64,000 bases of DNA from contig NZ_KE159709.1 of the NCBI RefSeq assembly GCF_000403435.2, positions 62,001 to 126,000 of the forward strand. The letters are read 5' to 3'. The stretch's first letter is position 1. Every line of letters begins with the position of its first letter. Source of the stretch: Oscillibacter sp. 1-3. Its GTDB lineage: Bacteria; Bacillota; Clostridia; Oscillospirales; Oscillospiraceae. This document shows positions 14,577 to 54,600 of the stretch, in pieces. The position numbers and the translations under genes were made by a program. Below the pieces are notes generated by a model. That model ran no database searches and had not been told where the DNA came from. It saw only the letters and a program-made list of their open reading frames with translations.

Positions 14577-14735
14577 ACCCTGCTTGAAAAACGTCCAAAC
14601 GCCCAATCGGCGGGCCTTTTCCGCCGCTTTGCATTGATTTTCCCTGGCCATACACGGAGTGCGGCGGCGTCAAATCGCCCTGACCGGCAAAAAATCTCTC
14701 GCCGCTGAGCGTTTCCCCATTTATGAAACACGGCC
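14577..14735 (+). repeat. Inverted-repeat element, copy A
   Basis: This roughly 160-base element begins at the stop codon of the kinase. It shares order and sequence with the segment at 54436-54600: a TTGAAAAA block near the left end, CGGCGG..CTTTTCCGCCGCT in the middle, and GGCAAAAAATCTCTCGCCGCT then CCATTTATGAAACA at the right. The ends are imperfect inverted repeats of each other, so the whole can fold on itself. It resembles a MITE or a large extragenic palindrome. No transposase is seen. Confidence 0.75.
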
Positions 14736-14784
14736 TGGACAGGGCCAGGCCAATTCAGCCGGATTATTTCGGCGCGGGACAGAG

Positions 14785-14822
14785 TGAGCCTCCGGACGGC
14801 GTTCCGTCCGGGGGCTCTTTCA
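14785..14822 (+). terminator. Terminator of the sugar catabolic operon
   Basis: A GC-rich hairpin (arms GAGCC..CCGGACGG and CCGTCCGG..GGCTC, 14786-14798 with 14803-14816) is followed by TTT. It lies about 200 bases after the kinase stop, beyond the repeat element. The rest of 14823-14980 shows no gene. Confidence 0.7.
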
Positions 14823-14981
14823 GACGCCTGCGGCCGGCCGGAAAATGCTGTTTGGGCACTCCGATTTTGGAAGCGGAGTTCAGCCATGGAACATCCAACC
14901 CTTCGTTTTTGCGCGGAGATGCGCAGCCGGGGCAAAATTTATTTTTCAGCTTCAGATTCGGCCTGGGATAAATAGAAACCA

Positions 14982-15011
14982 TTGACAAAAAACCGCTTCA
15001 GCCCATATAAT
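14982..15011 (+). promoter_or_regulatory. Promoter of the first chemoreceptor
   Basis: A perfect TTGACA (14982-14987) and a perfect TATAAT (15006-15011) have an 18-base spacer and lie 62 bases upstream of the chemoreceptor start. This is a strong vegetative promoter. Confidence 0.85.
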
Positions 15012-15073
15012 AGAAAATAAGATTCCCGGGACCGGGAGCGCAGTTCAGTTATGTAAAATTGAGGTGCAGTGAG

Positions 15074-17038
15074 ATGAAGAGTATTCGCAAGAAGATCACA
15101 GTATGCCTGATGGCAACCGTCCTCATCGCTCTGGCGGCAGTGGGGGCATCCAGCATCGCGCTGAATTACCGGAGCACCATTGCCACAGTGGACGCCATGA
15201 TGAGCGAGACCGCCGTACTGGCGGCAGAGCGCGTGGAGCAGGAGCTCATTGCCTACAAGAATGTGGCCATGGACACGGGCCGCATCTCTCAGCTGTCCAA
15301 CGACATGATGTCCCTGGAGGAAAAGCGCGCCGTGATCGACGAGCGCGTCAGCCTGCACGGCTTCCAGCGGGGCAATATCATCGGCAAGGACGGCATCAGT
15401 ATCTTTGACGGCAACGACTACTCCGATCGGGAGTATGTTCAGCAGGCCATGCAGGGGAACGTCTACGTCTCCGAGCCCCTGATCAGCAAAATCACGGGGG
15501 AGCTCTCCATCATGGTGGCGGCGCCGCTGTACTCCGAGCGGGGAGAGATCGCGGGCGTGGTCTACTTTGTGCCGCCGGAGACGTTCCTGAACGACATCGT
15601 CTCCTCTATTACCATCAGCGAAAACTCCCGGGCCTATATGATTAACAAAAACGGCGACACCATCGCCGACGTTACCCTGGACACCATCACCACCCAGAAT
15701 GTGGAGCAGGAGGCCCAGAGCGACTCCTCCCTGAACCGGCTGGCGGCTATCCACGCGGAGATGCGCCAGGGGAAGAACAGCTTCGGCAGCTTTACCAATG
15801 AGGCGGGGCCCTGGTTCGCGGCCTACGCCCCCGTGGACGGTACTGACGGCTGGAGCATCGCCGTCACCGCCATGAAGAAGGACTATCTGGCCGATACATA
15901 CTTCGGTATGCTCATCAATGTGCTGGTGATCGTGGCCTCCATCCTGGCCTCCATCGCGGTGGCCCTGAAGCTCTCCAGCAATATCAGCGTCCCCATGCAG
16001 GCCTGCGCCAGGCGGATGAAGTTGCTGGTGGAGGGCGATCTGGAGTCCCCGGTTCCCCAGGCCAGAGGTCAGGACGAGACCGCGGAGCTGACCCGCTCCA
16101 CGGCGGAGATGGTGAAGGGCCTGAACACCATCATAAACGACATCGGCTATCTGCTCAACCAGATGGCGAACAAGAATTTCGACATCCAGTCCGCCCACCG
16201 GGAGGCCTACGTGGGCGGCTTCCAGAGCATTTTGCTGTCTATGCGGAACCTGAAGATGGAGCTGAGCAGCACCATGCGCCAGATCGATGCATCCGCCAGT
16301 CAGGTGTCCGCCGCCGGCGAGCAGGTCTCCACCGGAGCTCAGACCCTGAGCCAGGGCTCCATGATGCAGGCCAGCTCCGTGGAGGAGCTGGCGGCCACCA
16401 TCAACGACATCTCCGACAGTGCCGGGAAGACCTCTGCCGCCGCCAAGGAGGCGGGCCGCTTCGTAGGCCAGGCCGGCGCCCATCTGGGTACCAGCGTAGA
16501 GCACGTGAAGGAGCTGAACGCGGCCATGGACAAGATCTCCGGCTCCTCTGAGGAGATCTCCAAAATCATCGCCACCATTTCAAACATTGCCTTCCAGACC
16601 AATATTCTGGCCCTGAACGCCGCCGTGGAGGCCGCCCGGGCCGGCAGCGCAGGCAAGGGCTTTGCCGTGGTGGCCGATGAGGTGCGCAATCTCGCCACCA
16701 GGTCCGACGAGGCCGCCAAGGCCACCAAGGAATTGATCGAGAGCTCCATCGCCGCCGTCGCCGAGGGCAGTGAGACGGTGGCAAAGGTCACTGAGGCCCT
16801 GGAGCAGACCAGCGAGTCCGCCGGCCATGTCACTGCCCAGATGGATATTGTGGTGGAGGCCGTGGAGAAGCAGACCGCCGCCCTCGTCCAGGTTACCGAG
16901 GGCGTGGACCAGATCTCCTCTGTGGTGCAGACCAACAGCGCCACCGCCCAGGAGAGCGCGGCGGCCAGCCAGGAGCTCTCCGCCGAGGCCGCCAGTCTCA
17001 AGCAGCTGGTAGACCAGTTTACCCTGGCCAGCGATTGA
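15074..17038 (+). CDS. Methyl-accepting chemotaxis protein (dCache type)
   Basis: This membrane chemoreceptor has 654 residues. It has an N-terminal membrane helix (about 7-29), an extracellular double-Cache sensor (about 35-275; MVAAPLYS and [13 protein letters not shown] are typical), a second membrane helix near 285-305, a HAMP domain, and a long coiled coil. The signalling hairpin tip lies near 525 ([35 protein letters not shown]). The ATG at 15074 follows GAGGTG; a TTG 15 bases upstream is less likely. dCache sensors typically bind small ligands directly. Its presence implies flagellar motility. Confidence 0.95.
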
Positions 17039-17130
17039 AAGACTTTCCCCAAATGCCCGTAGGAACAGCGTCCGTATGGGAATGGGCTCTGAGGGCCTTT
17101 TCGAGCATTTGCCCCGCAAAACGGCCCATC

Positions 17131-17169
17131 CAACAGGGGACTCCCGCCCGGTGGGCGGGAGTCCCGTTG
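17131..17169 (+). terminator. Hairpin terminator after the chemoreceptor
   Basis: A 13-bp GC-rich stem (17137-17149 with 17153-17165), flanked by an outer CAAC/GTTG pair, follows the chemoreceptor. The U-tract is poor (TGTCTC), so termination may be incomplete. Confidence 0.6.
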
Positions 17170-17204
17170 TCTCTGGGAGTGATTTCAAACGGCGCAGTTT
17201 TTGC

Positions 17205-17210
17205 TATACT
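17205..17210 (+). promoter_or_regulatory. Extended -10 promoter of the binding-protein/5NT-C fusion
   Basis: TGC followed by TATACT (17205-17210) forms an extended -10 element, with only a weak TTTCAA at 17183-17188 as -35. It lies 60 bases before the ATG at 17271. Confidence 0.5.
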
Positions 17211-17270
17211 GAGAGAGGGGCGGTCCGGCGTACTGCCGGAGCCTGCCAAACGCGAAAGGAGACGTTTCCA

Positions 17271-19049
17271 ATGACCATAAGACTGCTTCGGCGTCTGCTG
17301 CCGCTGGCGGCGGTGCTCCTGGTGCTGACCGCCTGCGCTCCCGCCGGACAAACGGAGGAGACGGACGCCCTCACCTGGGGCACCGGGGGAAACTATGCCC
17401 GGCACAAGCCGTTTTTGGATCTTCTGAGCCAGACCTGTCCGGACATTGAGCTGGAGTTTATCTCCTATGCCGGCGGCAATGCCACCGGCTACAGCTGGGC
17501 GCAGATGCGGGCGGACGATATTCCGGACATCTTCATCTCCTCCCAGATTCTGGACAAGACGCTGGCCGAGGAGCGTCTGGCGGACCTGTCCGGATACGGC
17601 TTTGTCAATGACTTCTCCACCGCGATCCTGGATCAGGTGGCCATTGACGGCGGCATATACCTTCTGCCGGTCAACAATACCATGTACGGCATCTACTATA
17701 ACAAGACCCTGATGGAGGAGAAGGGCTGGGAGGTCCCCGCGAATCTCGCGGAGCTGGAGGCGCTGTGCGCGGAAATTAGGGCGGAGGGACTGATCCCCGG
17801 CGTGGTGGGCACCATGCTCACCGGAGGCCCCTTTTCCACCGTATTCAACCTGGCCAAGACCAGCTGGCTCACCACGCCGGAGGGCATCAATTGGGAGCGG
17901 GATTTTCTGTCCGGCACCGCCAGAGCGGAGGGGATGTGGGAAGGCACCATGGAGCTGGTCCAGCGGTATATTGACATGGGCATGTTCACCACCGACCCAG
18001 ACGACCGCGTCAATGTAGAGCTGATACAGGACTATCTGGGCGGGCGGAAGGCGGTATTCTGCACGGTCGTGCAGCCCGTCAGCTTCACGGTGTTCCCCGA
18101 CACCGGCGACGAACTGGGCTTGATGCCCTATATCGGCGAGGACGGAAGCAAAAATGTCTATATGTACAGTCCCTTCTGTTATTTTGGCATCAGCAGGCGG
18201 CTTACCGAGCCCGGCAATGAGAAGAAGCTGGAGGACGCTGTCAGGATTCTGACCCTTCTCTTTTCCCAGGAGGGGCAGGACGCCTTTATCACGGAGCAGA
18301 CTCCCTGCGTCATGAGCGTGCTGGACGGCGCTGCCCTGCCGGAGGACGCCCTGATCGGCGACGCGCAGAGGGCTTTGCGGGAGGGGCGGGCCTTCCCCAT
18401 GACCTACGCCGGCTGGGAGAACGTTCTGGCCGACATGGGGCAGGCGTATAAAGAGTGGTTCCGTGGGGAGAACGGCGCGGACGGCCCCCAGTGCATCGCC
18501 CGGATGGATGCGCTCCAGCAGAGCGTTCTGAGCCGCTCGGAGGAGGTCTATTTCAGCCAGAGCGCCGCTGATTTTACGCTGGAGGAAACGGCGGAGCTGG
18601 TAGGCAGGGCATTGGGCAGCGCCGCCGGCGCGGATGCGGCCATGATTGTCCTGGGAGCGTTCCACGACGGTGTGGAGCTTCCCGCCGGCATCACCGGAAA
18701 GCTTTATGCGGGGAGAATCAATGCGGAGATTGTCAGCACCGTCACCCCCAACTATAACGGGGAATACGCCGTCCTCACCATGACCGGCGCGGAGGCCAAG
18801 GCCCTGGCGCAGGCGGGCTTCGACTTCGCGGGGGACGGAAATCCGTTTCCCTATGTCCTGGTGACAAGGGGCGGCGGAGAGCTGGAGGACGGCGGGATCT
18901 GCCGGGTGGCCTTTCTGATGAAGAGCTATACCGAGGAGACCGGAGCGGCCTATGGCGCCCAGGTGGAAAAGGGTTCGATCCGGACCTTCCTGCGGGAGTG
19001 GCTGGAGGAGCAGGGGACCGTGTCCCCGGACGGAAACCCCTGGCGGTGA
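17271..19049 (+). CDS. Solute-binding lipoprotein fused to a 5'-nucleotidase C-like domain
   Basis: This exported protein has 592 residues. The signal peptide ends in a lipobox (VLTAC, Cys22). Residues about 30-420 are an extracellular solute-binding protein of the MalE-like family (IYLLPVNNTMYGIYYNKTLMEE, GGRKAVF). Residues about 440-585 differ from any binding protein and follow the pattern of the 5'-nucleotidase C-terminal domain (EETAELVGRALGSAAGADAA; LPAGITGKLYAGRIN; LTMTGAEAKALAQ). There is no permease nearby. The gene precedes a membrane hybrid kinase, so it more likely presents a ligand to that sensor than feeds a transporter. The ATG is supported by AAAGGAGA upstream. Confidence 0.82.
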   Translation: MTIRLLRRLLPLAAVLLVLTACAPAGQTEETDALTWGTGGNYARHKPFLDLLSQTCPDIELEFISYAGGNATGYSWAQMRADDIPDIFISSQILDKTLAEERLADLSGYGFVNDFSTAILDQVAIDGGIYLLPVNNTMYGIYYNKTLMEEKGWEVPANLAELEALCAEIRAEGLIPGVVGTMLTGGPFSTVFNLAKTSWLTTPEGINWERDFLSGTARAEGMWEGTMELVQRYIDMGMFTTDPDDRVNVELIQDYLGGRKAVFCTVVQPVSFTVFPDTGDELGLMPYIGEDGSKNVYMYSPFCYFGISRRLTEPGNEKKLEDAVRILTLLFSQEGQDAFITEQTPCVMSVLDGAALPEDALIGDAQRALREGRAFPMTYAGWENVLADMGQAYKEWFRGENGADGPQCIARMDALQQSVLSRSEEVYFSQSAADFTLEETAELVGRALGSAAGADAAMIVLGAFHDGVELPAGITGKLYAGRINAEIVSTVTPNYNGEYAVLTMTGAEAKALAQAGFDFAGDGNPFPYVLVTRGGGELEDGGICRVAFLMKSYTEETGAAYGAQVEKGSIRTFLREWLEEQGTVSPDGNPWR

Positions 19050-19164
19050 CGGAACGCCCAGGGCCGATTGCGCGTTTTTCCGGCGCGGTATCCCTGCGGC
19101 CGGTGTGAAGCGCGTTGTACGCCGCCGCAGACGGCGGGTAATCTGGAAAGAGGAGGCGGGCTGA

Positions 19165-21819
19165 ATGAAGGCTGACAGAAAGACCCATATTGCGCTTCCG
19201 GCAGCACTGACGGCTTGCTTTTTGCTGCTGTTGCTGGTGAGCGGCTTCTATTTTGCCCGATACCTCCAGGACCGGATCTTTGAAGAGCGCACCACGCAGC
19301 TCAACGAGATCACCGCGCAGGTGCGGGTGAATCTGAGCGTCGCCCTGGACTCCCACTGGAAGTATCTGAACACCGCGGCCAACCTGTTGTCTGCTGTGGA
19401 GTACGAAACGGCGGAGGACGTGACAGAGCGGATTGCCGGACTGGAACAGCTCCTGGACCTGGAGAGCTACCGCGCCACGCTGATGCTGCTGGACAGCCGG
19501 GGGAACTGCTACGACGCGGAGGGCCGGCACGGCGTTTGGAGCGACATCGACCAGATCTCCGGCGGCGGTGCGCGGCATACCTTTATTTCTGACAGCTATC
19601 TCTATCCGGGCAGCTGCTGGGCATTTGTGCTGCAGCTGAACACCCCCCTCCTGACAGAGGAGGACGGCGCCGCCTTTACACACGCTGTCCTTTTGAAGGA
19701 CGTGTATACCATGTCCCAGTATTACGACAGCGGCGCCTACGGCAGCCGGAACGAGACATATATTCTCAAGAGCAACGGGACGCGGATGCACGACGATGTC
19801 TCCGCCGGCGGCAGCACCATCCAGGCGTACAACGTCCTCAAAGTGCTGGAGGAGATGGAGAACCAGGCCTATCCCGACATCAGCGCCGCTCTGGAGGAGG
19901 CGGATACCATCAGCGCCAGCTTCCGGTACGGCGGAAGGGAGTACTACTACTGTGTCACCGCTCTGGCGGAGTATGACACGCTGCTGCTGTTTCTAATCCC
20001 GGCGGAGTTTGTGGCCGCCGGGACTGTGGAGATGGTGGGAGCGGTGATCCGGATGCTGCTGTTTCTGGTGGTGATTCTTCTGGTGATGCTGATTTTGGCG
20101 GCGGCGGCCGTCACCCAGCAGCAGAGCAGCGCCCGTCTTTTCCGCCAGGAGCAGGAGAACCTGCGCCGCCAGGAGGAGATGAACCGGCGGCTGGAGGAGA
20201 CCAACGCCATGCTGGCCCGCTCCAAGGAGACGGCGGAGCAGGCATTCCAGATCGCGGAGGAGGCCAACCGGGCCAAGAGTTCCTTCCTCTCCAACATGAG
20301 CCACGACATCCGTACCCCCATGAACGCCATTGTGGGGTTCTCCGCCCTCCTGGCCCGGGATGCGGAAAACCCCGACAAGGTGCGGGAGTACACCAAAAAA
20401 ATTACGGCCTCCAGCCAGCATCTGCTGGGCCTGATTAACGACGTGCTGGACATCAGCAAAATCGAGGCCGGCAAGACGACGCTGAACCTGACCGACGAGA
20501 GCATGGTGGAGCTGATCGAAAATATTGACGCCATCATCCGGCCTCAGATGAAGGCCAAGGGGCACACTTTTGAGGTCTGCGGCGAGGACCTGCGGCACGA
20601 GCGGGTGGTGATGGATAAGCTCCGGCTGAACCAGATCCTGCTGAACCTGCTGTCCAACGCGGTGAAGTACACGCCGGAGGGCGGCCGCGTGGTGCTGACG
20701 GTGCGGGAGCTTCCTCAGCACGCCAGGCAGCTGGCCCATTACCGGTTTGTGGTGGAGGACAACGGCTACGGCATGAGCCCGGAGTACACCAAGAAGATTT
20801 TCCACGCCTTCACACGGGAGGAGGACAGCGTCACCAACAAGATCCAGGGCACCGGCCTGGGCATGGCCATCACCAAGAACCTGCTGGACCTGATGGGCGG
20901 AAAGATCACGGTGGAGAGCGAGAAGGGCCGGGGATCCACCTTCACGGTGGACCTGGAGCTCCCCATCAGCGAGCAGGCCGTTGACCAGGATTTCTGGAAA
21001 AGTCACGGCATCACCAGGCTTCTGGCGGTGGACGGCGAGGAGGCGGTCTGCCGGAGTATCCGGCTGGCTATGGAGGGCACCGGCGTGGCCGTGGAGTACG
21101 CGCTGGACGGCCAGACGGCTGTTGAGCGGGTGAAGGCCGCCCAGGGAGAGGGCCATCCGTATCATGTGGTTTTGCTGGACTGGAAAACGCCGGGAATGGA
21201 CGGCCTGGAAACCGCCCGAGGTATCCGCCGGGAGGTGCCGGAAAACGGCCCCCTTCTGGTGCTGTCCAGCTATGACTGGCCGGAGATCGAGGAGGAGGCC
21301 CGGGCCGCCGGGATCGACGCGTTTCTCTCCAAGCCGTTCTTCCTCACCAGCTTCCGACAGAAGGTGGAGGCGCTCCTGAGCCGCGGGCGTCAGGCGGAGC
21401 CCCCGGCCGCCGGCGGGGAGAGCGCACTGCGGGGAATGCACATCCTGGTGGCGGAGGACAACGAGATTAACGCGGAGATCTTGGGAGAGCTGCTGGACAT
21501 GGCGGGGGCTTCCTGCCGGATCTGCGAGAACGGGCGGCTTGCGGTCAAGGTCTTTGAGAGCTCCGCTCCCGGGGAGTACCAGATGATCCTGATGGACGTG
21601 CAGATGCCGGAGATGAACGGCTACGAGGCCACTCGGGCCATCCGGGACTCCGGCCACCCGCTGGCGCGGACGATCCCCGTTATCGCCATGACGGCCAACG
21701 CCTTCGCTGAGGACATTCGGGACGCCCTGGAGGCCGGGATGAACGCCCATGTGGCCAAGCCCATCGACATGGCCGTGCTGGAGCAGACCGTTCGGGCGGT
21801 GATGGAGGCCCAAGGTTAG
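19165..21819 (+). CDS. Hybrid sensor histidine kinase with two receiver domains
   Basis: This membrane sensor has 884 residues. Membrane helix 1 is at 11-32, an extracellular Cache-like domain at about 35-290, and membrane helix 2 at about 293-315. A coiled coil leads to HisKA with phospho-His H380 (SNMSHDIRTPMN), HATPase_c (NQILLNLLSNAVKYT, GTGLGMAI), a first receiver near 615-735 with a reduced acidic start (LLAVDGEE) but an Asp in LLDWKTPGMDG, and a second receiver near 750-880 (VAEDNEIN, LMDVQMPEMNG). No HPt or output gene is adjacent. It lies 115 bases after the binding-protein fusion and probably reads its ligand state. Confidence 0.93.
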   Translation: MKADRKTHIALPAALTACFLLLLLVSGFYFARYLQDRIFEERTTQLNEITAQVRVNLSVALDSHWKYLNTAANLLSAVEYETAEDVTERIAGLEQLLDLESYRATLMLLDSRGNCYDAEGRHGVWSDIDQISGGGARHTFISDSYLYPGSCWAFVLQLNTPLLTEEDGAAFTHAVLLKDVYTMSQYYDSGAYGSRNETYILKSNGTRMHDDVSAGGSTIQAYNVLKVLEEMENQAYPDISAALEEADTISASFRYGGREYYYCVTALAEYDTLLLFLIPAEFVAAGTVEMVGAVIRMLLFLVVILLVMLILAAAAVTQQQSSARLFRQEQENLRRQEEMNRRLEETNAMLARSKETAEQAFQIAEEANRAKSSFLSNMSHDIRTPMNAIVGFSALLARDAENPDKVREYTKKITASSQHLLGLINDVLDISKIEAGKTTLNLTDESMVELIENIDAIIRPQMKAKGHTFEVCGEDLRHERVVMDKLRLNQILLNLLSNAVKYTPEGGRVVLTVRELPQHARQLAHYRFVVEDNGYGMSPEYTKKIFHAFTREEDSVTNKIQGTGLGMAITKNLLDLMGGKITVESEKGRGSTFTVDLELPISEQAVDQDFWKSHGITRLLAVDGEEAVCRSIRLAMEGTGVAVEYALDGQTAVERVKAAQGEGHPYHVVLLDWKTPGMDGLETARGIRREVPENGPLLVLSSYDWPEIEEEARAAGIDAFLSKPFFLTSFRQKVEALLSRGRQAEPPAAGGESALRGMHILVAEDNEINAEILGELLDMAGASCRICENGRLAVKVFESSAPGEYQMILMDVQMPEMNGYEATRAIRDSGHPLARTIPVIAMTANAFAEDIRDALEAGMNAHVAKPIDMAVLEQTVRAVMEAQG

Positions 21820-21862
21820 GGCCTGACTGGCTTCACGCCCCATTTTTTCATAAAAGCAGCTG

Positions 21863-21894
21863 GGCCGGCAGTTACCGTTTGGTAACTGCCGGCC
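21863..21894. terminator. Perfect 14-bp hairpin after the hybrid kinase
   Basis: Arms 21863-21876 and 21881-21894 are perfectly complementary around a GTTT loop. There is no U-tract on the plus strand, so this may be a weak terminator or a transcript-end stabiliser. It lies just before the next ribosome site. Confidence 0.6.
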
Positions 21895-21919
21895 TGGATT
21901 GTGGAGGGTGGATCTGGAG

Positions 21920-22354
21920 ATGCGGAATTTAGAGCAGGTAAAGCGATTGACCAACGATTTGGACGATTATAGCCGGGAAGGACCTCCCACGGAAGAACGG
22001 GTGCGGCAAATGCGGGATCTGACCGGCATTGACTGGACGGCGGAAGAACAGTGGCGGCATTGTTTTGCGTATACAAGCAGGGCATCGCTGGAGGAAACCG
22101 CGTATCTCATGTTTCACAAGGAGTACCCGCCTGTTTATCAGGCGGATCTTGTCTTTTGGAAATGTCTGCCGGGCATCGTCCTGGACGAAAAGGAAATATA
22201 CAAAACATACCGTTTGGGACGAGGAACGTTAAAGGCGTTAGAGCCCTTGCCTTTGGAAGAAATCCTTGAAAAAATCGGGAAACTGTTTCTAGGCTGGACA
22301 CGGTATCCTGACGCGGTACAGGATGGAAAAAGCTGGCGCTTTGTCTGTCCGTAG
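21920..22354 (+). CDS. Hypothetical protein, possibly the front half of a split gene
   Basis: A 144-residue acidic protein with no domain I recognise. The ATG at 21920 is preceded by GGAGGG 11 bases upstream. It is rich in Trp and Glu, with segments such as IDWTAEEQWRH and YRLGRGTLKALEP, and has no signal peptide or membrane helix. Codon use is more AT-rich than the neighbouring kinase. The frame ends in TAG but continues open for 62 more codons in the same frame, so this may be the front half of a gene interrupted by an amber mutation. Confidence 0.6.
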   Translation: MRNLEQVKRLTNDLDDYSREGPPTEERVRQMRDLTGIDWTAEEQWRHCFAYTSRASLEETAYLMFHKEYPPVYQADLVFWKCLPGIVLDEKEIYKTYRLGRGTLKALEPLPLEEILEKIGKLFLGWTRYPDAVQDGKSWRFVCP

Positions 22355-22543
22355 CAGGCGGACTACTGGACGGATACGCACTTTTGGATGTTTGGATACG
22401 GACGGGAAACGGAGACGCGGCGGGAGCATCAGCTGCTGTGTTTCAGCTGCCACAACATGAGTGAGGAGCAGATCCGGACCATCCTGGCGTGCATGGAGAG
22501 CTTCCAGTGCCCGCTGCAGGTCCGGGAGGAGCGGAGGATTTAG
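22355..22543 (+). pseudogene. In-frame continuation after TAG, cysteine-containing
   Basis: Directly after the TAG at 22352-22354, the same frame stays open for 62 codons to a TAG at 22541-22543. It reads like protein: Trp/Tyr-rich (DYWTDTHFWMFGYG), then CFSCHN and, 20 residues on, a further Cys pair region (LACMESFQCP), suggesting a small metal-binding tail. No ribosome site or good start lies at the junction. The likeliest explanation is a nonsense-interrupted gene; a chance open frame is possible. Confidence 0.45.
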
Positions 22544-22606
22544 GGGAGTACTGATGGAATCAGTTATGCGTGTTTGCCGTTTGAAATGATACGCCCGGGC
22601 AGTCCG

Positions 22607-23053: not shown

Positions 23054-23121
23054 AAAAAAGCACCTCCCGGCCACATGGCCCATTTCACCTTCGGGCACAC
23101 TAGTTCCGGAGGTGAGCATGA

Positions 23122-23310: not shown

Positions 23311-23328
23311 ACAGAGCCCTGATACTGC

Positions 23329-31515: not shown

Positions 31516-32442
31516 TCAGGCCAGGAAGCCCTTGAGGATGCAGTCCTCGGCCTCCTCCTCGGTGAGGCCCAGGGTCTCCAGCTTTAAGAGCTGGTCCCCG
31601 GCGATTTTGCCGATGGCGGCCTCGTGGACCAGCTGAGCCTCGGTGCAGTTGGCGGTAATGGCGGGGATGGACTTGATCTTGGCGTCCCCCATGATGATGG
31701 AGTCGCACTGGACGTGGCCGAAGCACTGGGCGTTGCCCACCATTCGGGGATAGAACACCTGGCTGGACTGGTCCTGGGCCACGGAGCGGGAGATCACCCG
31801 CCCCTTGGAGTCCTCGCCGTCCAAAACGATCTCCATGTCGCTCTCCGCAATTTGATCCCCATGGGTCAGAAGCCGTTCGGTGACGATGGCCTCCGCCCCC
31901 TTGCCGCAGACGATCTTCGTGCTGCGCTTGGTGGAGTCGATGCCTCGGATCTGCACGGTCTCCATCTGGATGGAGGCCCCCTCCTCCAGGTTGACCACCG
32001 TCTCCGGATTCATGATCCGGCCGCCCTTGCCGTTCCCGTCGCCGTAGTGCTTCTCCGTGTACTTCACTTTGGAGTTTTTGCCCACGTGGAAGGTATGAAC
32101 GCCGTCGTGGCGGCTGGTCTGGTCGCCGCAGTTGTGGATGCCGCAGCCGGCCACAATGTCCACATCGCAGTTCTCCCCGATGTAGAAATCGTTGTAGACC
32201 AGCTCCTCCACACCGGACTTGGTGATGAGAACGGGGATGTGGCAGGTCTCGCCCACAGTGCCGTCCTTGACGCGGATGTCAATGCCGCTCTTGCCGTCGG
32301 TTTTGGAGGTAATCTCAATGTGCTCCGTGGACTGGCGGCCGTCGCAGCCGCTGTCCTTGCGGATGTTGAAGGCCCCCACGGGCTTGCCGGTGAGGTCCGC
32401 GATCTTCTCCAGCAGCTCACGGTCGAGCTCAGTGTCCATCAT
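31516..32442 (-). CDS. SufB/SufD-family Fe-S scaffold (SmsB-like)
   Basis: This 308-residue SufBD-superfamily protein is much shorter than SufB (about 470) or SufD (about 420). The core beta-helix repeats are visible (TETVVNLEEGASIQMETVQI-like strands, GRVISRSVAQDQSSQ, HVQCDSIIMGDAKI) and the C-terminal HEAAIGKIAGDQLLKLETLGLTEEEAE helix is typical of SufB/D. Several cysteines could hold a cluster. It overlaps the ATPase gene by 4 bases. A two-gene SufC+SufB-like system without SufS, SufU or SufD matches the SUF-like minimal system (SMS) reported for archaea and anaerobes. Confidence 0.85.
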   Translation of the reverse strand: MMDTELDRELLEKIADLTGKPVGAFNIRKDSGCDGRQSTEHIEITSKTDGKSGIDIRVKDGTVGETCHIPVLITKSGVEELVYNDFYIGENCDVDIVAGCGIHNCGDQTSRHDGVHTFHVGKNSKVKYTEKHYGDGNGKGGRIMNPETVVNLEEGASIQMETVQIRGIDSTKRSTKIVCGKGAEAIVTERLLTHGDQIAESDMEIVLDGEDSKGRVISRSVAQDQSSQVFYPRMVGNAQCFGHVQCDSIIMGDAKIKSIPAITANCTEAQLVHEAAIGKIAGDQLLKLETLGLTEEEAEDCILKGFLA

Positions 32443-33179
32443 AGCGCGTTCGCCTCCTTTGTCAGTACAGGGCAGCCGCCCAGGGTGTCCGCCAGAATTT
32501 GAGGCAGAATCTCAGAAGCCGTGCCCCGGTGGCGGATGGTGCCGTCTCCCACCACGATGACTTCGTCCGCCAGGGAGATAATACGCTCCTGGTGGGAGAT
32601 GATAATCATGGTGCCGCTGCCTGCGGCGTGAATCTGTTCGAAGGTCTCCGTCAGCCGGGCGAAGCTCCACAGGTCGATGCCGGCCTCCGGCTCGTCAAAG
32701 ATCATCAGCTGGGCGTTCCGGGCCAGGACGGAGGCGATCTCAATGCGCTTGACCTCGCCGCCGGAAAGGGACACGTCCACCTCCCGGTCCAGGTAGTCGT
32801 TGGCGCACAGGCCCACCTTGGTGAGATACTGGCAGCACTTGTCCTTGGAGAGCTTTTCCTCCCCGTGGGCCAGGGTCAGAAGGTCCCGCACCGTCAGCCC
32901 CTTGAAGCGGGGGGGCTGCTGGAAGCCGTAGCTGATGCCCAGGCGGGCCCGCTCCGTAATGCCAAGGGACGTGATGTCCTGCCCGTTCCAGAGGATCTGG
33001 CCGGAGGTGGGCGTCACCAGGCCCATGATGATCTTGGCCAGGGTGGTCTTGCCGCCGCCGTTGGGGCCGGTGAATACCACCAGGCGGTGGTCCGGAATGG
33101 TGAGGGAGATGTTGTTCAAAATGCCCAGCTCTCCGTCTCCCTCCCGGACGGAATAGCTGATGGACTTGAGTTCCAGCAT
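32439..33179 (-). CDS. SufC-like Fe-S assembly ATPase (SmsC-like)
   Basis: This 246-residue ABC-type ATPase has Walker A GPNGGGKT (near 36-43), a signature LSGGEVKR (near 138-145), Walker B LMIFDEPEAGID (near 158-169) and H-loop ISHQ. The EAGID after Walker B is characteristic of SufC. The start at 33179 is supported by AGGAGG 8 bases upstream; the longer frame has none. It works with the SmsB-like partner in de novo Fe-S cluster assembly in the cytoplasm. Confidence 0.92.
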   Translation of the reverse strand: MLELKSISYSVREGDGELGILNNISLTIPDHRLVVFTGPNGGGKTTLAKIIMGLVTPTSGQILWNGQDITSLGITERARLGISYGFQQPPRFKGLTVRDLLTLAHGEEKLSKDKCCQYLTKVGLCANDYLDREVDVSLSGGEVKRIEIASVLARNAQLMIFDEPEAGIDLWSFARLTETFEQIHAAGSGTMIIISHQERIISLADEVIVVGDGTIRHRGTASEILPQILADTLGGCPVLTKEANAL

Positions 33180-33294
33180 ATTTGGAACCTCCTCAGTACA
33201 GGGCTGATCTGACGCGAAGCAGAACGCCGGACCGGCGGATGCGCCGACCCGGCCTGCCATTTTTCAGACAGGGCCCGGATCTCAAAACATATCC

Positions 33295-36561: not shown

Positions 36562-36565
36562 CAAA

Positions 36566-47159: not shown

Positions 47160-47259
47160 AGTCCGCCGGAGGTCCGGCGTTCTGTGGAGACAATGAAAAA
47201 TTCGGAAAACCAACTGTGTGAAAGCGCCGGCGTATCTGGCCGGCGAGAGGGAGCAAGAA

Positions 47260-48264
47260 ATGGTATGGATCTGGACTGAATGGACAGAGGCGCCGATTGC
47301 CGCCGGGGCTGCTTTTTTGCTGACCCTGGTGATCGGACGGTTCCTGATTCCCGAGCTGCGAAAACTAAAGGCCGGCCAGGAGATCCGGGCCGACGGCCCC
47401 GCCTGGCACGCCTCTAAGGCGGGCACGCCCACCATGGGCGGCATCATGTTCATCGTCGGCACCGGAGTGATTGTGTTTGTTCTGGGCTGGCCGCGGATGC
47501 TGGGCGGGAACTTTGCCCATCTGTATGTCTACCTCTTCGCCCTGTGCTTCGGGTTTATCGGCTTCGTAGACGACTACCGCAAGGTGCGCCAGCACCAGAA
47601 CGAGGGCCTTACCGCAAAGCAGAAGTTTATTTTGCAGCTGCTGGCGGCGGTGGTGTTCCTCAGCCTGATGCGCTACGAGGGCCTGCTGACCAACCGCCTG
47701 TATATCCCGGGACTCCAGATAAATATTGCTGTCAACTGGATTTTGTACCTGATGTTCGCCGCCTTTGTCATCGTGGGAGCGGTGAACGCCGTGAACCTCA
47801 CCGACGGCATCGACGGGCTTGCGTGCAGCGTGACCTTTGTGGTGATGGTGTTTTTCACCGCGGCGGCGGTGCTGTGGCGCCTGACGGCTCTGGCCCTGTT
47901 TCCCTCCGCACTGGCGGGGGGACTGGCGGCCTTTTTCGTCTACAACCACCATCCCGCAAAGACCTTCATGGGGGATACCGGCAGCCTCTTTCTGGGCGGC
48001 GCGGTGGCGGCGCTGGCCTTCGCAATGGATATGCCCCTGATTCTGATCCCGGTGGGTATTATCTACATCGCCGAGACCCTGTCCGACATCATCCAGGTGG
48101 CCTATTTCAAGGCCACACACGGCAAGCGGTTTTTCAAGATGGCCCCGGTACACCACCACCTGGAGCGGTGCGGCTGGAGCGAGGCCAAGATAGTCACGGT
48201 GTTCAGCGCAGTCACGCTGGTCTGCTGCGCTCTTGCGTATCTGGCCATCCAGGGGCGCCATTGA
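47260..48264 (+). CDS. mraY: Phospho-MurNAc-pentapeptide transferase MraY
   Basis: This 334-residue membrane enzyme makes lipid I on the inner face of the membrane. About ten helices are present. Catalytic features: GTPTMGG (near 55), FVDDYRKV (near 101), NAVNLTDGIDGLA (near 176-188), FMGDTGSL (near 235) and the HHHLE loop (near 287). The ATG at 47260 follows GAGAGGGAG; the longer GTG frame at 47218 lacks a good site. Confidence 0.96.
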   Translation: MVWIWTEWTEAPIAAGAAFLLTLVIGRFLIPELRKLKAGQEIRADGPAWHASKAGTPTMGGIMFIVGTGVIVFVLGWPRMLGGNFAHLYVYLFALCFGFIGFVDDYRKVRQHQNEGLTAKQKFILQLLAAVVFLSLMRYEGLLTNRLYIPGLQINIAVNWILYLMFAAFVIVGAVNAVNLTDGIDGLACSVTFVVMVFFTAAAVLWRLTALALFPSALAGGLAAFFVYNHHPAKTFMGDTGSLFLGGAVAALAFAMDMPLILIPVGIIYIAETLSDIIQVAYFKATHGKRFFKMAPVHHHLERCGWSEAKIVTVFSAVTLVCCALAYLAIQGRH

Positions 48265-48429
48265 GGACACCGCAGCGCAGGAGGTTGGCAGGTCTCAAAA
48301 TCTAAGATTCCGATGAGCGGAGCATGTTCACATCAGTCCAACGGCTTACCGGCATAATTTGCTGGGAAGTTTGCATCTTCCTGCGTTTTTTCAGAATAAC
48401 CCTGAGACTTTTTTGAGAGGAGGAGCTCT

Positions 48430-49656
48430 ATGGTAGAGACACGGCGGCGCAGGCGGCCGATCAGCCGGGAGGAGGCACTGGCCCGGCAGGAGAAAAAGCA
48501 CCGTCAGAAAGAGCGGGAGGCGCTGAACCGGGAGCTGGCCAAGGGGCCCATCGATCTGCCCTTCTGCCTGCTGGTGCTGATGCTGATGGGCATCGGCCTT
48601 GTGATGCTGCTCTCTGCGAGCTTTCCCTCCGCCTATTATGACAATAACGACCCCATCAAGTACTTCCGCCAGCAGGGCGTCTTTGCCATTGCCGGTGTGG
48701 CCGCTATGCTCTTCATCGGCAAGATCAACTACCAGCGGTTCCGGGGCGCTGCGAAGCCGCTGCTGTATCTCTCCATTGTGCTGCTGGTGCTGGTCATCAT
48801 TCCCGGCAACCCCATTGCCCTTACCCGGAACAACGCCACCCGCTGGCTGGGCATCCGCAACACCAGCTTTCAGTTCCAGCCCTCGGAGGTGGCCAAGATG
48901 GCGGTGGTGCTGTATTTCTCCGACACCATCTCCAAGAAGAAGGACAAGATGAACACCACCCGGTACGGCGTGGCCCCCTACCTGCTGATTCTGGGGGTGC
49001 TGTCCGTGCTGATGATGCTGGAGCCCCATCTGTCCGGCACGGTGCTGATTCTGGGCGCCGGCGCGGTGCTGATGCTGGTGGGCGGCATCAATCTCACCTG
49101 GGTGGCGGCGGCAGTGGCCGGCGCCGGCGGCATCGCGTTTTTGATGTTCTCCGGGGTCATCAAATACGGTCAGTCCCGTCTGGCCATGTGGCAGAACCCC
49201 TGGCTGGACCCCCGGGGCGACGGTTACCAGCTGGTGCAGAGCCTGCTCTCCATCGGCTCCGGCGGCCTGTGGGGCGTGGGTCTGGGCAAGAGTCTCCAGA
49301 AATTCCTGTATCTCCCGGAGGAGCACAACGACTTTATCTTTGCCATCGTCTGCGAGGAGCTGGGCCTTGTCGGGGCCACCATCATCATGCTGCTCTTCGC
49401 GGCACTGATCCTCCGGGGCTACTGGATCGCCCTCCACGCCCGGGACAGGTTTGGAAGCCTGCTGGTGGTGGGCGTCACCACCCTGATCGCCATGCAGACG
49501 TTTTTGAACATCGGCGTGGTGACGGGTCTCCTGCCCACTACGGGCATCTCATTGCCGTTTTTCAGCTACGGAGGCACGGCGTTGATGATCCAGCTGGCGG
49601 AGATGGGCATTGTGCTGTCTGTCTCGCGGCAGATGAAACCTACTAAAGCGGGCTAG
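48430..49656 (+). CDS. ftsW: SEDS glycosyltransferase FtsW (or SpoVE)
   Basis: This 408-residue polytopic protein polymerises lipid II with its partner PBP. A charged N-terminal tail of about 40 residues is followed by ten helices. SEDS signatures are visible: RWLGI (near 138), FQPSEVAKMAVV (near 148-159), LPEEHNDFIFA (near 297-307) and GISLPFFSYGGTALM (near 376-390). AGGAGG precedes the ATG. It sits directly after mraY, where murD would normally intervene. FtsW and SpoVE are not separable by sequence alone. Confidence 0.93.
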   Translation: MVETRRRRRPISREEALARQEKKHRQKEREALNRELAKGPIDLPFCLLVLMLMGIGLVMLLSASFPSAYYDNNDPIKYFRQQGVFAIAGVAAMLFIGKINYQRFRGAAKPLLYLSIVLLVLVIIPGNPIALTRNNATRWLGIRNTSFQFQPSEVAKMAVVLYFSDTISKKKDKMNTTRYGVAPYLLILGVLSVLMMLEPHLSGTVLILGAGAVLMLVGGINLTWVAAAVAGAGGIAFLMFSGVIKYGQSRLAMWQNPWLDPRGDGYQLVQSLLSIGSGGLWGVGLGKSLQKFLYLPEEHNDFIFAIVCEELGLVGATIIMLLFAALILRGYWIALHARDRFGSLLVVGVTTLIAMQTFLNIGVVTGLLPTTGISLPFFSYGGTALMIQLAEMGIVLSVSRQMKPTKAG

Positions 49657-49889
49657 CACCAGCTTTTCGGGGGAGCGGACTCCATCTCCGGCCTAAGAGC
49701 CGCCCTGCGGGCGCGGCCTCGGCCGCTCCCTCCGCCAGTCTGCGGACTGGCGCCGCCGTCCAAGGCGGCAATGACTGAAATTCCTTCCTCCGCCTCCGGC
49801 GGAAGAATCGGGGAATCCCCTTCTCTGTGTCTGCGGGCGCGGGAGGAGCGGCGATTCCTGACTTCTCGTTGCGAAAGAGGGTGCTTGCC
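49657..49889. repeat. Palindrome-rich ftsW-murG spacer
   Basis: This 233-base spacer is packed with inverted repeats: GCCAGTC-TGCG-GACTGGC (49735-49752), GCCGCC-GTCCAA-GGCGGC (49752-49769), and TCCGCC-TCC-GGCGGA near 49790-49804. No gene is present. It looks like a small extragenic palindromic element inserted in the operon. No second copy was seen in the window. Confidence 0.5.
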
Positions 49890-51026
49890 TTGCCTCAAAA
49901 CCTGAAACGGGTCATCTTCACCTGCGGCGGTACGGCGGGGCATGTGAATCCGGCCATCGCCCTGGCGCAGCTGATGCGCGGGAAGGACCCGGAGACAAAA
50001 TTTTTGTTTGTGGGCGCGGAGCGGGGCCTGGAGAAGGACCTGATCCCCAAGGCGGGCTATGACTTCCGCACTGTCCATATCTCCAGCTTTCATCGCTCCT
50101 TCAGGCCCGGGGAGATCCGGCACAATTTGATCTCTGTCTGCAACCTCCTGCGGGCCCCCCGGGAGGCCCGGGCGATTTTGCGGGAGTTCTCGCCGGACGC
50201 GGTGATCGGCACCGGCGGCTACGCCAGCTATCCCATGGTGAAGGCCGCCGCCAAAGCCGGCGTCCCCACGGTGGTCCACGAGTCCAACATGGTGCCGGGC
50301 CTGACTACGGAGATGCTGGAGCCCTTCGCGGACCGGATTCTGGTGGGCTTTGAGTCCTGCCGCCGGCACTACCGGCGCCCGGAGAAGGTGGCCGTCACCG
50401 GCACGCCGGTGCGGGGGGACTTTTTTGAACTCACCAGGGAGGAGGCCAAAAAACGGCTGGGCGTGGATGACGGCCGGCCGCTGATCGTCTCCTTCTGGGG
50501 GTCCCTGGGGGCCTCCGGCATGAACCGTCAGATGGCGGATTTCCTGGCCTTGGAGGCGAAAAAAGAGCCCTTCCACCACATCCACGGCGCGGGGGAGGCG
50601 GGGTATCCCCTCCTGCTGGCGCTGCTGGAAGAGAAGGGCGTCGATTTGCAGGACCACCCGGCGCTGGACGTCCGGAAGTACATCTACGATATGGCGGCGG
50701 TTATGCGGGCGGCCGATCTGGTGATCTGCCGGGCCGGGGCCTCCACCATCAGCGAGCTGACGGCCCTGGGCGTACCGGCGCTGATCGTGCCCTCTCCCTA
50801 TGTGACCAACAACCACCAGGAGAAAAATGCCCGGGCCTTGGAGGAGGCGGGCGGCGCGGCGGTGCTGCTGGAAAAGGACAGCTCCGGTCAGGCGCTGTTC
50901 CAGGCCGCCTGCGGCATCCTCCACAACGGGGAGCGCCGGGCCGGAATGGAAAAGGCCATGGCGGCCCTGGGCATCCGGGACGCCGCCGAGCGCATTTATC
51001 AGACGATTTTGGAGGTGTGTAAGTAA
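49890..51026 (+). CDS. murG: Lipid II synthase MurG
   Basis: This 378-residue peripheral GT-B glycosyltransferase adds GlcNAc to lipid I. The start TTG at 49890 follows AGAGGG by 9 bases. Motifs: FTCGGTAGHVNPA (near 8-20), GTGGYASYP (near 108-116), HESNMVPGL (near 131-139), and the UDP-GlcNAc site RAGASTISELTALGVPAL (near 280-297). It follows ftsW after a palindrome-rich spacer. Confidence 0.95.
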   Translation: MPQNLKRVIFTCGGTAGHVNPAIALAQLMRGKDPETKFLFVGAERGLEKDLIPKAGYDFRTVHISSFHRSFRPGEIRHNLISVCNLLRAPREARAILREFSPDAVIGTGGYASYPMVKAAAKAGVPTVVHESNMVPGLTTEMLEPFADRILVGFESCRRHYRRPEKVAVTGTPVRGDFFELTREEAKKRLGVDDGRPLIVSFWGSLGASGMNRQMADFLALEAKKEPFHHIHGAGEAGYPLLLALLEEKGVDLQDHPALDVRKYIYDMAAVMRAADLVICRAGASTISELTALGVPALIVPSPYVTNNHQEKNARALEEAGGAAVLLEKDSSGQALFQAACGILHNGERRAGMEKAMAALGIRDAAERIYQTILEVCK

Positions 51027-51092
51027 CCAGTTTTTCCCCGGGCCCATAGGATGGTCTGTATGAGACCATTTTTGGGTACGGGGGGAACATAT

Positions 51093-52355
51093 ATGAGCCA
51101 GCTTTTGGTGCGGGGCGGCGGCAGCCTCACGGGGGAAGTGGCCGTCCAGGGAGCGAAAAACAGCGTGCTGCCCATCCTGGCGGCGACGCTGCTGACAGGC
51201 GGACAGGTGGAGCTGCGGGGATGTCCCCGCCTGCGGGATGTGGACGCCTCCATCCGGATTTTGAAGACCTTGGGCTGCGACGCCCGCTGGGAGGGGGACA
51301 GCCTTCTGGCAGATACTGCCGGGTTGAACCGCTGCGCCGTCTCTGATATACTGATGCGGGAGATGCGCTCCTCAGCCATTTTTCTGGGGGCCATTCTGGC
51401 CCGGTGCGGGGAGGCGGAGATGAGCTACCCCGGCGGCTGTGAGCTGGGTCCCAGGCCCATCGATCTGCATCTGGCGGGACTTCGGGACCTGGGTGCGGAG
51501 ATTCGGGACAGCGGCGGAATGCTCCGGTGCAGGGCCTCCCGTCTGCGGGGAAGGGATCTGGTTCTCAGCCTGCCCTCCGTGGGGGCCACAGAGAACCTGA
51601 TGCTGGCCGCCTGCGGGGCGGAGGGCGTCACCACCATTGCCAACGCCGCCCGGGAGCCGGAGATTGTGGACCTGCAGGAGTTTTTGAACGCCTGCGGCGC
51701 GGCCGTCTCCGGCGCGGGGACCTCCACCGTCACGGTGGTCGGAAAGCGTCCCCTCCACGGCTGTACTTACGAGATCATGCCGGACCGCATTGTGGCGGCC
51801 ACCTATCTCTGCGCCGCGGCCTCCGCCGGCGGGGAGATCTACTTACGAAAGGCCCGGGAGAGCCAGCTGTCCACCGTGACCGCCGTGCTGCGGGAGGCGG
51901 GGTGCGTTGTCCGGGCGGACCGGGACGGCGTGGGCTGTGTCTGCCGGGGGCGGCTGGGGAGCGTCCGCCCCGTGCGGACGGCGCCCTATCCTGGCTTTCC
52001 CACGGACGCCCAGGCGGTTTTGATGGCCGCGCTGCTGCGCAGCCGGGGGGCCACGGTCTTTGAGGAGACCATCTTTGAAAACCGGTACCGCCATGTGGAC
52101 GAACTGGTCCGCATGGGGGCGGACATCCGGGTGGCGGGCCGCGTGGCGGTGGTCACCGGTACGGAGATCCTCCGCGGCGCGCCGGTGCGCTGTACGGACC
52201 TGCGGGGCGGAGCGGCGCTGTGTGTGGCGGCCCTGGCGGCGGAGGGCGAGACCTCCATCGCCGAGATCAGCCACATCGACCGGGGCTACGAGTGCATTGA
52301 GAAAGATTTGCGGACTCTGGGGGCGGACATCGTCCGTACAGAGCTTACTATATAG
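51093..52355 (+). CDS. murA: UDP-GlcNAc 1-carboxyvinyltransferase MurA
   Basis: This 420-residue enzyme transfers enolpyruvate to UDP-GlcNAc, the first committed peptidoglycan step. The catalytic residues are K22 (in QGAKNS) and C116 (in YPGGCELG); the Cys means fosfomycin sensitivity of this copy is expected. GTENLMLAA-type sequence and DRIVAATYLCAAA are present. The ATG at 51093 follows GGGGGGAA. Confidence 0.95.
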   Translation: MSQLLVRGGGSLTGEVAVQGAKNSVLPILAATLLTGGQVELRGCPRLRDVDASIRILKTLGCDARWEGDSLLADTAGLNRCAVSDILMREMRSSAIFLGAILARCGEAEMSYPGGCELGPRPIDLHLAGLRDLGAEIRDSGGMLRCRASRLRGRDLVLSLPSVGATENLMLAACGAEGVTTIANAAREPEIVDLQEFLNACGAAVSGAGTSTVTVVGKRPLHGCTYEIMPDRIVAATYLCAAASAGGEIYLRKARESQLSTVTAVLREAGCVVRADRDGVGCVCRGRLGSVRPVRTAPYPGFPTDAQAVLMAALLRSRGATVFEETIFENRYRHVDELVRMGADIRVAGRVAVVTGTEILRGAPVRCTDLRGGAALCVAALAAEGETSIAEISHIDRGYECIEKDLRTLGADIVRTELTI

Positions 52356-52371
52356 GAGATCAAAGAGAGAT

Positions 52372-53154
52372 ATGGCAAGACGCAGAAAAACCAACCGGCG
52401 GAGGAGAGGGAGATCCGGCTTCCTCTATAAGCTGTTGTCCGTTTTGGCCATGTGCGTCTGTCTGATTACGGCGCTGACGCTGTTTTTCCGGGTGGATACC
52501 ATCGTGGTCACAGGCGGAGTGCGCTACACGGAGCAGGAGCTGCAGGACGCCGCAGGGGTCAGGGCAGGGGCCAACCTGCTGCTGCTGAACAAGGGCAGGG
52601 TGGCCGCCAGCATGACGGGGAAGCTGCCCTATCTGAAAGAGATCAGCAGCATCAGCAAGAAGCTGCCGGACACTCTGGAGATCCATGTGGAGGAGTGCGG
52701 ACAGCCGTTGGCGGTGATCCAGGACGGCGCCGCCTGGCTCATCAGCCCCACCAGCTCCGGCCGGGGCAAGATCGTGGAGCAGGTGCCGGCGGCGGCCGCC
52801 GGCGAATACGGGGTGATCGACGGCTGCCAGCTGCTGGCCCCCTCGGTGGGGAGCGGCCCCGCCTTTTCCACGGAGTACGCCGTCCAGCAGAGCAGCCTTC
52901 TCAGCCTGCTGAACGCCCTGGAGGAGGCGGAGATGCTGGAGCAGGTGGAGGCCATCCACCTGGGAGATTCCAGTGAGATCACCATGGAGTACGGCGGACG
53001 CTTTACCGTGCGTCTGAGTTACAGCGCGGATTACGCCCGCAAGCTCACAAAGCTGCAGTGGAGTCTCACCGAGGGTATTATCCAGGACAACATGACCGGC
53101 ACCTTTGACATGCGGGGGGACAGCAAGGACTTCTTCCAGCCGGATCTACAGTAA
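52372..53154 (+). CDS. ftsQ: Cell division protein FtsQ/DivIB
   Basis: A 260-residue bitopic protein with a very basic cytoplasmic start (RRRKTNRRRRGR), a membrane helix at about 19-41, a POTRA domain (FRVDTIVVTGGVRYTEQELQDAAGV, near 38-62; PYLKEISSISKKLPDTLEIHVEE) and a beta domain. ATAGGAGATC precedes the ATG at 52372. Upstream in-frame codons inside murA are not used. It bridges FtsL/DivIC and the septal synthase. Confidence 0.9.
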   Translation: MARRRKTNRRRRGRSGFLYKLLSVLAMCVCLITALTLFFRVDTIVVTGGVRYTEQELQDAAGVRAGANLLLLNKGRVAASMTGKLPYLKEISSISKKLPDTLEIHVEECGQPLAVIQDGAAWLISPTSSGRGKIVEQVPAAAAGEYGVIDGCQLLAPSVGSGPAFSTEYAVQQSSLLSLLNALEEAEMLEQVEAIHLGDSSEITMEYGGRFTVRLSYSADYARKLTKLQWSLTEGIIQDNMTGTFDMRGDSKDFFQPDLQ

Positions 53155-53215
53155 AAAAATGGATGTTTTTTCCGTTTTCTTTTGGAAAAAACCGTCGAAA
53201 AGAGACGGAGGGGGC

Positions 53216-53244
53216 TTGACCGGAGCAAAAAAGTGTCATACAAT
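53216..53244 (+). promoter_or_regulatory. Promoter of ftsZ
   Basis: TTGACC (53216-53221) and TACAAT (53239-53244) are 17 bases apart, 87 bases before ftsZ, giving ftsZ its own transcription start inside the cluster. Confidence 0.7.
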
Positions 53245-53331
53245 AGATACTATATATTGGGATACTGGATATTGTGGAAAGCGCCGGGCATTTTCGCCCT
53301 TTTCTACAAATGATAGCAGGAGGCAGCACTT

Positions 53332-54435
53332 ATGGCATTTGGACTGGAAACGGGTTCCGATACCGTTGTCAACATCAAAGTAATCGGCGTTGGCGGCGGC
53401 GGCAACAACGTGGTCAACCGCATGGTCCGTTCCGGGACCAAGGGCGTGGAATTTGTGGCGGTGAATACGGATAAGCAGGCGCTGAACGTCTCCAGTGCCT
53501 CTGACAAGATCCAGATCGGCGAAAAGCTGACCCACGGCAAGGGCGCCGGCGCGGACCCTGAGATCGGCCGTAAGGCCGCCGAGGAGAGCCGCAACCAGAT
53601 CGCCAAGGCTCTGGAGGATACGGACATGGTGTTCATCGCCGCCGGCATGGGCGGCGGCACCGGCACCGGCGGCGCACCCATCGTGGCGGAGATCGCCAAG
53701 GAGATGGATATTCTCACCGTGGGCGTGGTCACCAAGCCCTTCGGCTTTGAGGGTCCCCGCCGGATGCGGGCTGCCGAGGCGGGCATCGCCGAGCTGGAGG
53801 GAAAGGTGGACTCTCTGGTCATCATTCCAAACGAGCGGCTGAAGTATGCGACAGACCAGAAGGTGACCTTCGCCAACGCCTTTGAGATTGCCGACGACGT
53901 GCTGCGCCAGGCGGTGCAGTCCATCTCCGACCTGATTCGGGACACCGGCTTCATCAACCTGGACTTTGCCGACGTCACAGCGATTATGAAAAACGCCGGC
54001 ATGGCCCACATGGGCGTGGGCCGGGCCGCCGGGAAAGGCAAGGCCGAGGAGGCCGCCAAGATGGCCATCTCCAGCCCCCTGCTGGAGACCTCCATCGAAG
54101 GCGCCAAGGGCGTACTGATTAACATCACCGGTTCCATGGACATCGGTCTGGAGGAGGTGGAGCAGGCCGCCAGCCTGGTGCGGGACGCGGTCCATCCCGA
54201 CGCCCTGACCATCTTCGGCGCCACGTTTGAAGAGACCATGGACGACGAGATCCGGGTCACTGTCATCGCAACCGGCTTTGATAAGGACGCCAAGCAGCTG
54301 CCCAAGGTGGCCCAGGAGGGGCAGACAGGCGGCGCTCCGGCTCCCGTGCCGCTGGGGGAGGAAGACGTGCCCAAGGCGGAGAAGGAGGATGACCCCTTCG
54401 ACGACATTTTCAAAATTTTCAACAAGCGCGATTAG
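53332..54435 (+). CDS. ftsZ: Cell division GTPase FtsZ
   Basis: This 367-residue tubulin-like GTPase assembles the Z-ring. The GTP-binding tubulin signature is GGGTGTG at 107-113. Also present: [15 protein letters not shown] (near 18-32), the T7 loop [12 protein letters not shown] (near 206-217) and a short C-terminal tail ending [14 protein letters not shown], which is the FtsA/SepF-binding peptide in modified form. AGCAGGAGGC precedes the ATG. Its stop directly abuts the second inverted-repeat element. Confidence 0.98.
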
Positions 54436-54600
54436 GCCTTGTTTGAAAAATGGCAGAACGCCTCGACGGCGGACCTCTTTTCGCCGCTGTGCTTTGACGT
54501 TCCCAGTCATACATAAAGTATGGCTGTGTTAAATTTCCTTGACGGGCAAAAAAATCTCTCGCCGCTGCACGTTCCGCCATTTATCAAACAGGACTTAAAT
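54436..54600 (+). repeat. Inverted-repeat element, copy B
   Basis: This roughly 165-base element begins immediately after the ftsZ stop and matches copy A (14577-14735) block by block, including GGCAAAAAAATCTCTCGCCGCT and CCATTTATCAAACA at the right. Its left end (CCTTGTTTGAAAAATGGCaGAACG) is the near-perfect inverted complement of its right end (CGTTCcGCCATTTATCAAACAGG). An internal hairpin (CAGTCATAC..GTATGGCTG, 54507-54530 region) is also present. Confidence 0.8.

Follow-up and report, generated by a model that had tools for sequence, protein, structure and literature searches.

A high-copy family of palindromic MITEs, probably moved by an IS5-family transposase, in Oscillibacter sp. 1-3

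Several small mobile repeats of bacteria have TA termini. Correia/NEMIS, ERIC and RUP are all described in this way, and are counted among the small MITE-like mobile repeats, in the account given by PMC2229807. According to the same account, the Correia/NEMIS elements of Neisseria are about 107–155 bp long, with a 24-bp terminal inverted repeat, TA termini, a target site duplication and long stem-loop transcripts. ERIC (or IRU, 127 bp) of the enterobacteria is described as having TA termini and a target site duplication, and as lying between genes, sometimes at gene 3' ends (PMC10969869, PMC2229807). RUP of Streptococcus pneumoniae is described as a 107-bp MITE that is tied to IS630-Spn1 by similar terminal inverted repeats and TA targets (PMC2229807).

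The family analysed here is likened to these three by description. It was met in the window, a stretch of 64,000 nucleotides of the Oscillibacter sp. 1-3 genome, which holds two copies, A and B. The family differs from Correia/NEMIS in its host, and in that a scan found no promoter-like site in copy A or copy B. It differs from ERIC in its host group, and in having longer paired ends, ERIC being described with 7 contiguous base pairs in its terminal inverted repeat. It differs from RUP in its partner, which belongs to IS5 rather than IS630. No description of MITEs in Oscillospiraceae, Oscillibacter or gut Clostridia was found in the open-licence literature, among the matches listed, and this high-copy family of Oscillospiraceae-type bacteria appears to be previously undescribed.

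Boundaries of the two copies in the window

Copy A occupies positions 14576–14735 (plus strand, 160 bp) and copy B positions 54435–54595 (plus strand, 161 bp). A preliminary description of this DNA had reported two related copies with the same block order and right-end blocks, each folding on itself through imperfect terminal inverted repeats. Alignment (75.5 percent identity, 158 nt matched) and a family profile confirm this; the profile finds full copies in the window only at A and B (E 1.7e-44 and 3.3e-42), and each also matches itself on the opposite strand, and is therefore an inverted repeat. The copies are real, but the ends given earlier (14577–14735 and 54436–54600) were slightly off.

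The correction is small but it changes how the gene ends are read. The copies had been described as starting immediately after a stop codon. A TAG is indeed present in both cases, but the first G of the element completes it, so that the boundary overlaps the stop. In copy A, the left flanking TA (14574–14575) together with G14576 forms the stop of a PfkB-like gene (13524–14576, plus strand). In copy B, the TA at 54433–54434 together with G54435 forms the stop of ftsZ (53332–54435, plus strand), a gene that is conserved in relatives; both gene names are those of the preliminary description. The stops at 14574–14576 and 54433–54435 therefore belong to the element boundary. On the right, copy B is flanked by TA (54596–54597) and copy A by TG (14736–14737), a decayed TA. 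The general layout is YTA-GGCCnTGTTTGAAAAA...TCAAACAnGGCC-TAR.

Both window copies belong to subfamily I, which is more diverged than subfamily II. A 22-position match of the profile to the left end of the element lies on the minus strand at 33254–33275, upstream of a minus-strand ORF (32439–33179). It was considered as a third copy, but the match is weak (E 0.027 over 22 model positions) and it was demoted to a possible end remnant. Curated Rfam families gave no match above the gathering score in the window.

Size, distribution and target of the family

The preliminary description allowed for the case that only these two copies exist in the whole genome. This did not occur: there are 66 two-ended exact matches in the genome, and none for a reversed-pattern control. 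The end motif GGNCNTGTTTGAAAA, with at most one mismatch, is found 138 + 144 times (controls 3 + 1). A BLAST search with copy B gave at least 71 matches in at least about 41 distinct places (the best 40 of 182 candidates scored). In 88 segments of the genome, amounting to about 421 kb, there are 96 places with matches, of which 85 are full-length, namely 25 of subfamily I and 60 of subfamily II. One end could not be located in two of these, which were left out, and the analyses below use the remaining 83 (24 and 59, respectively). The same segments contain 178 end-motif matches; rough scaling from 178 to 282 suggests roughly 135 full-length copies in the 4.47 Mb genome, and there are probably more than 100 in this bacterium.

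The copies are uniform in length, with 74/83 measuring 159–161 bp and 76/83 measuring 158–163 bp. The full range is 143–184 bp, which leaves no room for a transposase gene. Within subfamily II, the best 20 other copies are 94–96 percent identical to the query copy, so that its expansion looks recent. Two subfamily II copies (G000 C7:271721 and C8:115442) have most of 60 nt in common in one flank, and so lie inside another repeat.

Matches occur in 8 of 25 genomes of the same genus, the source genome included, although G021 has a single 36-nt piece only, and in none of the 15 genomes compared from other genera. A collection of 84,980 species, in which records of the source genome may be omitted, was also searched for an exact 22-nt version of the end pattern. 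It was found in 61 stretches from 16 assemblies (counted by accession prefix), among them Pseudoflavonifractor sp. 524-17. The titles name Oscillibacter, Pseudoflavonifractor, Flavonifractor or Oscillospiraceae, and in some cases only the wider Clostridia, Clostridiales or Eubacteriales. Plasmids searched with copy B, and phages searched with one subfamily II copy, gave no match. That the repeats arise by chance or as an assembly artefact is suggested by nothing beyond the draft state of the contigs. Against it stand the control counts (0 for two ends, 4 for single ends), the restriction to the genus among these 40 genomes, and the recovery of the end pattern in a separate collection, and we regard it as virtually excluded.

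The flanks of the 83 copies define the target. A check for target duplications had been proposed, and what is duplicated is a TA and nothing longer. TA is present on both sides in 60/83 copies, on the left only in 7, on the right only in 10, and on neither side in 6; the two flanks match over 2 bp in 62/83 copies and over 3 bp in 0/83. There is a T or C at position −3 in 78/83 and an A or G at +3 in 75/83, giving the consensus Y-TA-element-TA-R. Both TAs survive in 50/59 copies of subfamily II but in only 10/24 of subfamily I, as expected if subfamily I is older.

A transposase with matching ends had likewise been proposed as something to look for. One was found in the same genome, in an 847-bp IS5-family element (L058, 1429–2275) whose two ends, GGTCTTGTTTGAAAAAT and GGGCATGTTTGAAAAAT, both border on a TA; in context the ends read TTA-GGTCTTGTTTGAAAAAT and ATTTTTCAAACATGCCC-TAA. 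Its transposase lies in two overlapping frames, matching PF13340 (IS4/5 family, 100.4 bits) and PF01609 (65.5 bits), both above the cut-off. The match to the MITE is limited to the outer 17 nt or so, plus the TA flanks, with nothing further in. IS427-group elements in a survey of Paracoccus are described as 832–865 bp long, with inverted repeats of 13–21 bp and mostly 2-bp target repeats, some of them having two overlapping ORFs with a frameshift motif (PMC3281130). The L058 element resembles this description in its length of about 850 bp, its two overlapping frames, its short inverted repeats and its 2-bp duplication, and on its length, ORF layout, Pfam matches and TA flanks would belong to the IS427 group. 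The difference is that the interior of the MITE is unrelated to the L058 element.

The genome has 13 matches to PF13340, 11 of them over the cut-off. A 69-bp TA-flanked mini-element (L061, 1299–1367) has perfect 28-nt inverted arms, identical at 26/28 nt to the left end of the L058 element, and is possibly a minimal element. At L079, a decayed relative of the transposase, with the end-like sequence GGGGTTGTTTGAAAG, directly adjoins a MITE copy. A candidate IS end at L075 was rejected, as it coincides with a MITE match next to a transposase.

These repeats are short and carry no transposase gene; they have terminal inverted repeats, duplicate a TA, are dispersed in many copies with empty sites (discussed below), and share their ends with an insertion sequence. 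The preliminary reading as a MITE thus holds. We conclude that they are very probably a non-autonomous MITE family, a long palindrome of about 160 bp between TAs, whose movement probably depends on an IS5-family (IS427-like) transposase acting in trans. As one insertion sequence of this genome agrees with the MITE in its outermost 17 nt and in its TA flanks, the mover is probably a transposase of the L058 type. It would recognise the outer ends GGnCnTGTTTGAAAAA, insert into Y-TA-R and duplicate the TA, and it may be that of the L058 element itself or of a lost relative. Against this explanation it must be said that the two elements have no more than about 17 outer nt in common, that no insertion sequence matching the subterminal sequence of the MITE was found among the IS5-type transposases of this genome and its relatives, and that the explanation is read from sequence, with two sites cleanly tested for emptiness.

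Empty sites and position relative to genes

The empty-site evidence covers two loci, ftsZ and the PfkB-like gene. The 3' end of ftsZ was read in 21 relatives (14 of the same genus, 7 of other genera), and 20 have no element there, as judged by eye and by profile. In the 13 same-genus relatives without the element the ftsZ stop is TGA in 11 and TAA in 2 (G012 and G003), and in most of them it is followed immediately by a hairpin. This resembles a hairpin with a T-rich tail which in the source genome lies 3' of copy B (54625–54651, plus strand); these hairpins were read by eye, and the scan of the window did not flag the one downstream of copy B. The source genome has thus kept this hairpin, which now lies downstream of the element. 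Of 23 relatives searched for the PfkB-like gene, two (G006 and G008) have an orthologue, in both cases without the element. When the joined flanks of 14 insertions were compared with 10 relatives, scoring 34 candidates per genome, a clean empty site in single copy was seen at ftsZ only, and the other matches were mostly repeat-borne or partial.

G006 is the closest relative (FtsZ 99 percent). It has an element of about 220 bp at its ftsZ stop (L093, about 2599–2822), in the opposite orientation to copy B. The longest matched piece is 88 percent identical to another copy from the source genome, against 76 percent to copy B. The opposite orientations in the two genomes may reflect independent insertion, inversion or conversion; inversion of Correia elements is reported in PMC10969869. 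The G006 element also has roughly 60 nt of additional GC-rich sequence inside it.

It had also been suggested that the repeat is a mobile 3'-end or terminator module which prefers gene ends, supplying its host gene with a stop and a terminator. Positions relative to genes were therefore compared with control YTAR sites, using a simple codon-score gene caller made for this analysis rather than a published one. The copies are intergenic in 80/83 cases, the other 3 lying in low-scoring ORFs, while 229/745 control sites lie inside genes. A stop codon is within 4 nt of 12/80 intergenic copies against 23/516 control sites (p 1e-3), and within 50 nt of 22/80 against 52/516 (p 7e-5), with no excess near starts in the same comparison. 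The excess at stops is significant but modest. Terminator-like stems point the same way: the scan found 2 inside copy B, where 0.7 were expected, and 2 at copy A, where 0.8 were expected, one lying inside it and the other spanning its right end on the minus strand.

Other observations do not fit such a module. The gaps that hold copies are tandem in 50 cases, divergent in 12, convergent in 9 and undecided, at segment edges, in 9. In the 50 tandem gaps orientation to the gene is random (24 same, 26 opposite), and in the 23 tandem gaps with at least 3 sites the rank toward the stop shows no significant bias (mean 0.43, KS p 0.21). The native hairpin of ftsZ is retained. The proposed clustering after stops therefore stands as a modest excess, but not as a consistent position, and we consider a gene-end module very improbable. 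A hairpin 3' of copy A (14786–14817, plus strand), read by eye and not flagged by the scan, may be the terminator of the PfkB-like gene, whether or not it is homologous to the hairpin of the relatives.

We think instead that the excess comes from a YTAR target which can overlap TAA and TAG stops, together with selection. As the element body starts with G, a TAA or TAG stop that receives it at its TA would become an in-frame TAG, so that the protein would be preserved. Protein-sparing insertions of this kind, along with selection against insertion within genes, could yield a modest excess at stops.

Hairpin structure and mosaic history

The element is predicted to form a long imperfect hairpin, with folding z scores of −2.8 to −13.1 (14 of the 83 copies folded, both strands). 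Covariation is also seen. In an alignment of 30 sequences, 63 cells are changed on both sides of the stem against 25.0 ± 4.6 in shuffled alignments (0/500), with slid controls giving at most 19. In the 19 sequences that lack the subfamily II central hairpin (one of which, L040, was scored as subfamily II by BLAST) the count is 26 against 7.7 ± 2.3, with slid controls at most 12.

These results would be expected if the hairpin is a selected RNA element, transcribed and controlling the processing or stability of mRNA, a role described for NEMIS/Correia in Neisseria (RNase III) and for ERIC in Yersinia (PMC10969869, PMC2229807). However, the predictions behind these counts used the very alignments that were counted, which favours the predicted structures. 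Within the young subfamily II there is hardly any (20 copies, 2 cells against 0.4; 19/500), and orientation to genes is random, as noted above.

In addition, the central hairpin of subfamily II, GGGCGTCAGCCC, recurs in reverse in a second MITE-like family of about 160 bp, which is TA-flanked and has unrelated ends (TAGAGCAnTTC...). Examples are L176 1498–1666, L027 about 1661–1824 and G000 C6:159255–159414. The L027 element abuts a subfamily II copy, with one TA common to both. Part of the covariation between subfamilies I and II can therefore be due to module swapping. A chimera is present in G006 (C21:15731–15893; L252/L254), one half being of the second family and the other half subfamily II-like, joined at the hairpin; it is the single case found by an exact-end scan of 24 genomes.

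There are also signs that one arm has been copied from the other. The left arm of the copy at C5:799642 carries five consecutive states of the other arm, the sole clear case in a systematic test of the 83 copies; in a column-shuffled control on the 59 subfamily II copies the mean number is 0.018. Two others (C5:313067 and C7:263703) look patched by eye, but the systematic test did not pick them up, and they are left out of the count. In PMC8794818, template switching is reported both to give rise to hairpins and to maintain them. The shared central hairpin and the arm-templated patch call for caution in taking covariation as a sign of selection, and a selected RNA function seems unlikely to us. 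The palindrome probably persists partly through mutation, by template switching from arm to arm and by exchange of the central hairpin, and need not owe its persistence to selection for RNA function.

More tentatively, we propose a modular MITE system, which we hold to be possible rather than probable. TA-inserting families of one genus would swap arms around a common central hairpin, giving chimeras with unlike ends, and template switching would restore the palindrome, so that covariation would arise mutationally. Independent insertion, inversion or conversion would have placed elements of opposite orientation at the ftsZ stop of two sister species.

The family is new yet ordinary in kind. 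It is well supported, and shows signs of having had a mosaic history. It accounts for repeats that adjoin many genes, and the TAG ends of the element should not be mistaken for conserved gene-end signals. It also provides natural material for dividing the compensatory changes of a hairpin among selection, module exchange and template switching.
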